From positions 4,344,045 through 4,408,044 of the forward strand of contig NZ_HE997181.1 in assembly GCF_000312425.1 (NCBI RefSeq): a stretch of 64,000 nt of DNA, written 5' to 3'. Origin of the DNA: Reyranella massiliensis 521. Its GTDB lineage: Bacteria; Pseudomonadota; Alphaproteobacteria; Reyranellales; Reyranellaceae. This document shows, one piece after another, positions 10,079 through 13,512 of the stretch (positions within the stretch are counted from its first letter, which is position 1; each line of letters starts with the position of its first letter). Under the pieces are notes generated by a model. That model was not told the origin of the DNA. It searched no databases and saw nothing but the letters and a program-made list of their open reading frames with translations. Made by a program: the position numbers and the translations under genes.

Positions 10079-10417
10079 ATGGCGCCGAAGAAGATGGCTC
10101 TCGAGATCGGCATGGGCACCGACATACGCGGCGGCGACTACACGAAGGCTGCCGTGCGGGCGCTGCGCGATGCGCTGTGGCACAACTCGCTCACAGTCGC
10201 CACGGCACTGGGAAAGTCGAGCGACGACATGCAGGTCGAAGTCCTGATCGGCGTGCCGAAGCCCGATCAGGTCGACACCAAACAGGTGCTCGCCGTGCTG
10301 CCGCACGGCGCCGGCACGGTGAAGGTCGTCGAAGGCGGCCTCGAGATTCCCAACGAAGCCGGCACGGACAAGACGGTGATCGCCCAGGCAGCGGCCATCG
10401 TCCGGCTCGACCTGTAG
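10079..10417 (+). CDS. Lin0512 family protein, copy 1
   Basis: 112 aa. The sequence LEIGMGTDIRGGDYTKAAVRALRDAL followed by VEVLIGVPKPDQVD and LPHGAGTVKVVEGGLEIPNE matches the Lin0512 family, small proteins of unknown function named after a Listeria gene. The fold is probably a compact alpha/beta domain. It lies 27 bp after the Bug-type binding-protein gene and 14 bp before its own paralogue, so the two likely form a hetero-oligomer. Confidence 0.85.
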   Translation: MAPKKMALEIGMGTDIRGGDYTKAAVRALRDALWHNSLTVATALGKSSDDMQVEVLIGVPKPDQVDTKQVLAVLPHGAGTVKVVEGGLEIPNEAGTDKTVIAQAAAIVRLDL

Positions 10418-10431
10418 GCGGAGGCGGCACC

Positions 10432-10776
10432 ATGGCGGCGAAACGCGTTATCCTCGAACTCGGCACCGGCAACGATCTGCACGGCGGCGACTACACCAAG
10501 GCGGCCCTGCGCGCGGTGCAGGATGCCCTGCACCATTCCTCGCTGGCGATGATCCGGACGCTCAAGATCAATCCCAAGACCGACATGTTCGTCGATGTCA
10601 CGATCGGCGTGCAGCAGCCGGACAAGGTCGATGCCGAAAAGGTCCGTGCTTCGCTACCGCACGGCATCGTCACGGTGAAGGTGGTGAAGGGCGGCCTCGA
10701 CATTGCCGATCCCGACCACAACGATCCTGCCGTGATCGCCAGCGCCGCGGTCGCCGTCAGGCTGGAGTTGCCCTGA
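10432..10776 (+). CDS. Lin0512 family protein, copy 2
   Basis: 114 aa with a GGAGGCGGCACC leader before the ATG. It shares most motifs with copy 1: ILELGTGNDLHGGDYTKAAL, VDVTIGVQQPDKVD, LPHGIVTVKVVKGGLDIAD. The Asn/His pair in GNDLHGG is closer to the usual Lin0512 GxDxHGQ motif than copy 1, which has Arg there. The divergence suggests an old tandem duplication with two distinct subunits. It is in the same apparent operon as the binding protein, copy 1 and the GST gene. Confidence 0.85.
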   Translation: MAAKRVILELGTGNDLHGGDYTKAALRAVQDALHHSSLAMIRTLKINPKTDMFVDVTIGVQQPDKVDAEKVRASLPHGIVTVKVVKGGLDIADPDHNDPAVIASAAVAVRLELP

Positions 10777-11903: not shown

Positions 11904-12428
11904 TCAGGCCCTGAGCAGCATGCTTCTGCCCTGCTCGATCGCTGTGCGCGCCATCGCGCGCAGTTCGTCGTCGGTGGCGCTGCTGACCGGATGGCCGATC
12001 TGGGCGAAGCGATAATCCGGCATCCCCAGCACGCGGCTCATCATCTCGGCCGCGCTGGCGAACCGGGTCGTCATCACGCTGAAGGCGGGAACCTGAAGTC
12101 TTTCAGCCGTTACGGAGTCGTGCAGACTGCACGATGAACAGCTTCCTCAATCCCCCAGGCCTGAGACGACGGCATCCCAGCCTTTGATCTCCGCTACGAT
12201 ATGGGCATCGGCCGGCGCGCTATAATTCGACTTGGTGCGGCTTACGACCCTGGCGACGCCGTACTCTTCACGCAGGATCTGATCGAGGTGCGTGAAGAAG
12301 CCCTTGGTGCCTTCCTTGCCGTTGGAGATGAAGCCCACGGTCTTGCCTTGGAGCGTGTCGAGACGTGGCGCGAGCTGGCCAAGTGGAGCAGCCGTTCCGG
12401 GCGTGGGGTCGAGAACACGGAAGGTCAT
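11904..12428 (-). CDS. UGSC family selenoprotein (selenocysteine encoded by TGA at 12147-12149)
   Basis: 174 residues including selenocysteine at position 94. The frame reads normally for 93 codons (MTFRVLDPTPG..., GKTVGFISNGKEGTKGFF, then WDAVVSGLGD), meets TGA, then continues in frame as GSCSSCSLHDSVTAERL and on to a TGA at 11904. U-G-S-C after a GxGD strand end is the signature of the UGSC family, whose members carry Sec or Cys here. A SECIS-type hairpin begins 12 nt after the UGA. Downstream codons keep high GC third positions and family-like sequence (MPDYRFAQIGHPVSS). The U-x-x-C pair suggests thiol/selenol redox chemistry. It follows the 351-aa CxxC protein gene by 28 bp. It needs selA, selB, selC and selD elsewhere. 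Confidence 0.93.
12118..12134 (-). promoter_or_regulatory. Bacterial SECIS hairpin for selenocysteine insertion
   Basis: On the minus strand TCGTGCA-GTC-TGCACGA forms a perfect 7-bp stem with a GUC loop. The loop starts 19 nt after the last base of the UGA codon (12147). Known bacterial SECIS elements lie in the coding region just after UGA, with a small apical loop carrying G/U near its start that SelB binds. Position, loop and coding context all fit. Confidence 0.85.
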
Positions 12429-12456: not shown

Positions 12457-13512
12457 TCACTTCTTCGGCGGTTCGCAATCGACGCAGACGCCGATCGGCA
12501 GGGTCACGGCATGACTCTTGTTGCCGAGCCAAGGTGGAATGACGGCACCGAAGCCGCCCGCCGGGCCGCCGGCCGCCACGACCAAAAGCTGGTCGGCCGA
12601 TTCCATGGCCGGATAGACGCTGTCGCCACGGTCGCGCACGACGGCGCCCTTGCCCACGTCGGCCCATTCGCGGCGATGAATGCGTGCCCGCTCATGGATA
12701 AAGCCTGCGATATCGCTCTTGGTCCACCCTCCGGCCTGCAGATGTTCCCGCAACTGCTTGGGAATGATCAGCGCGTAGTTGCCCGGGTGGATCGAATAGT
12801 GCCGCAGGTTGGCGCGCATCTCGGCCGCAAAGGTTTCGAGAATCTCCTCGGGCTTGGTCGTCCACTCGTTCATGAGCTGACGCGGCGCGCCGGCGGCCAT
12901 CACTGTCACGGAGGACGCGCCCTTGGGAACGCCGCGCTGCTCGGCGAGCGGCAGCCACGTCGTGTCCTCTTCGTCCTCGGCAACGCAGTAGCTGAACTTG
13001 CCGGGATGCCCCAAGGTCGACCGATCGATCACGCCCGGCCGCACGTCCATCAGGTTGATCAGGCAGAGCCGGATGGCCCGTCCGATCACCGCCGTAGCGC
13101 GATCGGAATTGCCCAGCGCATTGAACGTGCCGCCCGCCCCCAGTTCGAGCCGGATCGGACCGTTCAGCACGACCAGCACGGCACATCCGCCAGTGCTCGC
13201 CGTGGCGCCGTGCATCAGGAACTCTTCCTGCATCATGGCCGTCCAGGCCGTCACGACGACCGGGAAATGCATCGGCAGGCAGCCTGCCATCACGGCATTG
13301 ATCGCAAGCTTCTCGGCGGTGATGGCAAGCCCGCGCACCGGCTCGATGCCGATGAGCTGGTCGGGCGGCATCATCACCCATTCGAGGCAGGCTTCGACCG
13401 CCTCTTTCGTCGGCGGCACGACCGGCAGTCCATCGGTCCAGCCGTTGGAGTGGTAAAGCTCCTGAACGGCAGAGATGCTGTCGACGTCGTAGGTGCGCGA
13501 AGCGAGTTGCAC
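12457..13512 (-). CDS. Cys-rich protein of the UGSC gene neighbourhood, C-terminal CxxC
   Basis: 351 aa from the GTG at 13512, which has GGAGG 7 bases upstream. It has no signal peptide. Features: WTDGLPVVPPTKEAVE near the N-terminus, INAVMAGCLPMHFPVVV at about residues 71-87, GHPGKFSYCVAEDEE at 168-182, and a terminal VCVDC (Cys343, Cys346) forming a CxxC. Other Cys occur at 42, 78, 110 and 150. I recall this sequence type accompanying UGSC selenoproteins but know no proven activity. The CxxC next to a U-x-x-C protein makes a redox partnership plausible. The gene is 28 bp upstream of the selenoprotein and certainly in its operon. Confidence 0.75.
   Translation of the reverse strand: MQLASRTYDVDSISAVQELYHSNGWTDGLPVVPPTKEAVEACLEWVMMPPDQLIGIEPVRGLAITAEKLAINAVMAGCLPMHFPVVVTAWTAMMQEEFLMHGATASTGGCAVLVVLNGPIRLELGAGGTFNALGNSDRATAVIGRAIRLCLINLMDVRPGVIDRSTLGHPGKFSYCVAEDEEDTTWLPLAEQRGVPKGASSVTVMAAGAPRQLMNEWTTKPEEILETFAAEMRANLRHYSIHPGNYALIIPKQLREHLQAGGWTKSDIAGFIHERARIHRREWADVGKGAVVRDRGDSVYPAMESADQLLVVAAGGPAGGFGAVIPPWLGNKSHAVTLPIGVCVDCEPPKK

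Follow-up and report, generated by a model that had tools for sequence, protein, structure and literature searches.

Organization of the UGSC locus

The minus strand of the window (the whole stretch of DNA analysed, 64,000 nucleotides), taken from a genome whose nearest relatives are Reyranella, carries a UGSC family selenoprotein gene (11904..12428). Its ATG start lies at 12428 and its terminal stop, at 11906-11904, is also a UGA. An additional in-frame UGA at 12147..12149 would be read as Sec94 of the 174-aa product, within the motif D-U-G-S-C-S-S-C-S-L-H-D. Directly upstream on the same strand, and outside the SECIS described below, lies a 351-aa gene (12457..13512) that is a predicted functional partner. 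Elsewhere in the window, on the plus strand (10079-10776), a Lin0512-family gene is followed by a similar-looking frame, apparently as a tandem pair.

The product scored 157.8 bits on the Pfam model PF24696 (UGSC; cut-off 25, E 3.8e-46), the match covering residues 5-171 and thus spanning the UGA. With Cys substituted for Sec, it reached 115.3 bits, below the 125-bit equivalog cut-off of NCBIfam NF041046, and its family placement therefore rests on PF24696. Compared with 100 orthologues, pN/pS was 0.28 upstream of the UGA and 0.32 downstream of the hairpin, which indicates that purifying selection is similar on both sides of the UGA and that the downstream frame is real. The comparison set comprised 260 distinct UGSC genes, and the first position of the UxxC motif showed Sec/Cys exchange among them, with UGA in 252 and Cys in 8 (7 TGC, 1 TGT).

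UGSC is a known but unstudied family, whose selenoproteins were reported from marine metagenomes (PMC2398784). The protein described here has the family, the UxxC motif and the presence of Sec in most members in common with those proteins (PMC2398784; NF041046; PF24696), whereas in the present case four paralogues occur within one alphaproteobacterial genome. A thioredoxin-like fold was guessed for UGSC in the GOS paper (PMC2398784). The best PDB matches of the AlphaFold2 model (pLDDT 86.7) were Rossmann or flavodoxin-like, with middling Z scores of up to 9.9. Neither the fold matches nor the family matches shown included a thioredoxin-fold or GrdB/PrdB relative, and a Pfam search of the protein up to E 5 returned UGSC only, with no GrdB/PrdB-like match; these results carry no weight against either relationship. 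Matches of the UGSC profile to PDB sequences were short, involved pentatricopeptide-repeat chains over residues 74-96 only, and were judged spurious.

The hairpin downstream of the in-frame UGA

The UGA is followed by a 12-nt spacer, GGAAGCUGUUCA (12135..12146, minus strand), and then by the hairpin UCGUGCA-GUC-UGCACGA (12118..12134, minus strand). The latter consists of a 5' arm UCGUGCA (12134-12128), an apical loop GUC (12125..12127) and a 3' arm UGCACGA (12124-12118), all on the minus strand. The UGA and the loop are 19 nt apart, and the G and U of the loop, at +20/+21 (G23/U24 in the E. coli numbering), are the predicted SelB contact. The perfect 7-bp stem, the GUC loop and the 12-nt distance described in the initial annotation were thus confirmed in the sequence of the minus strand.

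On its own, the 17-mer folded with -8.2 kcal/mol, and the 44 nt counted from the UGA with -13.0 kcal/mol. RNA folding had been proposed as a check of the element: the hairpin does fold, but the energy of these 44 nt was not significant against shuffled sequences (z -1.05), equally good folds being obtained in 30/200. Within the 64-kb window, a perfect 7-bp stem with bacterial-SECIS geometry follows 20 of 1462 TGA triplets, and an Rfam search of the same window gave no match at gathering scores. When the same peptide was recoded synonymously, weighted by local codon usage, 4.05% of the recodings made the same stem. Moreover, in the two Cys-form genes of Natrinema, 6-7 bp still fold at the same place. 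For these last two reasons the stem by itself is weak evidence. By its folding energy, the TGA count and the recodings, its chance origin as a lone 7-bp stem is only mildly unlikely.

Conservation and covariation of the hairpin

Among the 252 UGA genes, 240 have GU at +20/+21 and a hairpin in the same register. Pairs 2-6 are intact in 237 of these GU-type genes and all seven pairs in 186, the commonest failure being A-A in place of U-A at pair 1, mainly in one paralogue group. The remaining 12 UGA genes have other bSECIS-like hairpins, which follow the pattern CCCGC-CGUGNN-GCGGG, or nearly so, in ten and are weaker candidates farther downstream in two. A divergent fusion subfamily carries an unrelated hairpin of similar geometry. 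Relatives that keep the UGA and lack any hairpin, the case which the initial annotation had regarded as counter-evidence, were not encountered (0/252).

Codon choice points to a constraint at the RNA level. The Ser codon of the loop (codon +7) is AGT in 220/220 UGA genes, although local genes use AGT for 4.4% of their Ser codons. Where codon +7 encodes Ser or Cys, it ends in U in 240/242 Sec genes versus 0/6 Cys-form genes (Fisher 9e-11, uncorrected for relatedness). In 101 close orthologues, AGT was present at codon +7 in 101/101 and at the other conserved Ser codons in 0-22 per column. The lowest synonymous diversity of the gene was found in the 7-codon windows starting from +5 and +4. The claim that two constraints act on the same bases is upheld by this minimum at the hairpin; it has to be tempered in one respect, as the stem is in part a by-product of the conserved peptide, given the residual folding in the Natrinema Cys forms.

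The stem pairs were also found to co-vary in relatives, as had been proposed for verification. At pair 3, where both bases are synonymous third positions, G-C occurs in 163 genes, G-U in 60, A-U in 12, U-U in 1 and A-C in 0, and the 5' base changed at least 9 times on the tree. A sign test on independent pairs gave 5 supporting and 0 opposing events for this pair, a number of countable events too small to give the test power. The other compensated pairs involve amino-acid changes: the W-type paralogues (L214) have G-C instead of C-G at pair 6, via Cys-to-Trp plus Leu-to-Phe, and another UGSC gene (L032) has G-U instead of U-A at pair 4, via Cys-to-Gly plus His-to-Leu. In a set of 16 sequences picked to show variety, double changes occurred in 3/7 pairs, exceeding all 500 shuffles and every slid register. 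Taken together, conservation, covariation and codon choice among relatives put the hairpin far beyond chance.

Comparison with known bacterial SECIS elements

In the bSECIS model, the apical loop has 3-9 nt and the upper stem 4-16 bp, a G stands within the first two loop positions and is usually followed by G or U, the UGA-loop spacing is 16-37 nt and the MFE is -7.5 kcal/mol or lower (PMC13188914). The UGSC hairpin agrees with this consensus in all four constraints, without any difference (PMC13188914, Fig. 2 legend). Its 3-nt loop and 7 bp are within the size limits, the loop GUC has its G at the expected place (GU also being found in 240/252 UGA-containing relatives), the 19-nt spacing is inside the range, and the energies of both the 17-mer and the 44-nt segment are below the limit. 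The SECIS-like placement of the apical loop, with an early G/U, which had been noted initially, is therefore borne out. Since published bacterial SECIS elements are highly variable (PMC13188914), the UGSC hairpin is a variant of the known bacterial SECIS and not a new class.

The SECIS of E. coli fdhF is likewise a hairpin inside the coding region, with G23/U24 counted from the UGA as in the UGSC hairpin. The eight bases GUCUGCAC (23-30), the 3' half of the UGSC hairpin, are identical in fdhF and stand in the same register. The two elements differ in the loop, which has 4 nt in fdhF and 3 nt in the UGSC hairpin, and in the stem: U17 is bulged in fdhF, whereas the 7 bp of the UGSC hairpin form a perfect stem with no bulge. 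U17, G23 and U24 are the fixed SECIS sites of E. coli, and a change of U17 or G23 abolishes read-through (PMC8659212). The GU-type UGSC genes lack the bulged U17: in 240/240 of them, position 17 is a C that pairs with G31.

The fdnG genes of the same genome and genus keep GU at +20/+21, as does the UGSC hairpin. They have U at +14, corresponding to U17 of E. coli, in 30/30 sequences, with a predicted bulge in most; the UGSC hairpins, in contrast, pair this position (C14-G28). In four of the 30 fdnG sequences, the lower pair is C-G instead of G-C.

Selenocysteine machinery and UGSC paralogues

The genome contains a tRNA-Sec (75.4 bits, anticodon TCA); a second tRNA-Sec match above the cut-off (52.7 bits) turned out to be a tRNA-Ser. 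One SelB was found above the cut-off. SelA adjoins it; fdhE and genes for formate dehydrogenase-N belong to the same cluster, whose formate dehydrogenase gene has an in-frame UGA in the usual position. SelD is fused, as the C-terminal half, to an N-terminal pyridine nucleotide-disulfide oxidoreductase domain in a protein of 758 aa (L231:1423-3699, minus strand). With tRNA-Sec, SelA, SelB and SelD all found, the gene content indicates that the genome is Sec-decoding. As there is a single SelB above the cut-off, the fdnG and UGSC hairpins must share it, and one SelB seems to read hairpins both with and without a bulged U.

Four UGSC genes are present in the genome, each with one in-frame UGA followed by this hairpin. 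The W-type paralogue (G000:C1:1811068-1811556) has the motif U-G-S-C-S-S-W-S-F-H-D. It occurs in nearly all Reyranella genomes, with the compensated stem UCGUGGA-GUU-UCCACGA.

The partner gene

In 254/260 UGSC loci the partner gene shares the strand of the UGSC gene and is no more than 1.5 kb away from it, and in 15 the two are fused. Pfam and NCBIfam searches with the 351-aa protein gave no match. Its AlphaFold2 model had a pLDDT of 80.9, and Cys78, Cys110 and Cys176 are conserved; the fold search yielded weak matches only, to class I fumarases and to hydrolases of the Toblerone fold, which were not relied on. The partner is apparently undescribed, but may have been described earlier in the literature on selenoprotein neighbourhoods, a subject reportedly treated by Haft and Tolstoy (2025). 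UGSC and its partner can reasonably be regarded as a putative two-subunit redox enzyme. In the GOS paper, UGSC was found fused to a domain named 'Unknown_1' (PMC2398784), which may or may not correspond to the present partner. On the Arthrobacter plasmid NZ_CP012477.1, a Cys-form UGSC gene lies behind trxB, trxA and a hypothetical gene of 347 aa; a gene for phosphosulfolactate synthase is also adjacent.

Interpretation of the hairpin

The hairpin is almost certainly a bacterial SECIS inside the coding region of a Reyranella UGSC selenoprotein gene, directing SelB-dependent Sec insertion at the UGA. The basis of this reading is the hairpin itself, its conservation and covariation, the codon constraint, the post-UGA frame and the Sec machinery; from established knowledge, we infer that SelB would bind the hairpin and that Sec would indeed be inserted. 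When a ribosome arrives at the UGA (12149-12147), the hairpin just downstream would hold SelB together with Sec-tRNA-Sec (anticodon UCA). SelB would contact the G and U that open the apical loop, and Sec would be delivered in place of a release-factor stop. The predicted product is the 174-aa protein with the motif U-G-S-C-S-S-C. The mechanism is known, and the Reyranella UGSC SECIS is a newly found, well-supported example of it.

It is very improbable that the hairpin is a mere by-product of the peptide S-C-S-L-H-D, with Sec insertion, if any, depending on something else. The proportion of recodings that make the stem, the residual folding of the Natrinema Cys forms and the unremarkable energy z would all agree with such an origin, but the synonymous-site data largely refute it. 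The peptide would explain neither AGT at every loop Ser codon, against its low local usage, nor the third-position U that none of the Cys forms has, nor the minimum of synonymous diversity at the hairpin. In addition, the stem survives the amino-acid changes in the W-type paralogues and in L032, and an unrelated hairpin with comparable geometry is present in the divergent fusion subfamily. Decoding of the UGA by a suppressor tRNA or by a general reassignment to Cys or Trp, without SelB, deserves hardly any weight. The open frame and the Cys found at this site in 8 homologues are all that speaks for it, but UGA is also the terminal stop in 134/249 UGA-containing UGSC genes, and the terminal UGA of the UGSC gene in the window is followed by no such hairpin (the scan was one base off, which is not material); UGA is therefore not reassigned. 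The presence of tRNA-Sec, SelA, SelB and SelD in the genome also speaks against this explanation.

There is a practically negligible probability that this UGA acts as a plain stop codon and that the frame beyond it is a separate gene, a gene in decay or the result of a sequencing error. UGA does serve as a normal stop in the genus, even at the end of the UGSC gene. Against this, 252 distinct genes, drawn from many genomes, have the in-frame UGA at the same site, pN/pS past the UGA stays near the value before it, and the Pfam model spans the UGA, so that conservation refutes this explanation.

The SECIS reading can be combined with the data on fdnG and on the partner gene. Jointly, they suggest that the Reyranella SelB may read both bulged-U fdnG and bulge-less, GU-only UGSC SECIS elements in one cell, and that UGSC and its near-invariant 351-aa neighbour may form an undescribed two-subunit selenoenzyme, a genome keeping as many as five paralogous pairs. 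This joint proposal is put forward tentatively, at somewhat less than an even chance.

The analysis confirms a selenoprotein that standard annotation would truncate at the UGA, losing its tail. The 252 genes constitute an unusually clean natural set in which synonymous sites allow constraint from the SECIS to be told apart from that of the protein. With bulge-less UGSC hairpins beside the bulged fdnG ones, the needs of SelB outside E. coli become testable. Finally, the near-invariant partner gene offers a route to the function of the UGSC family, which reviews have left open.
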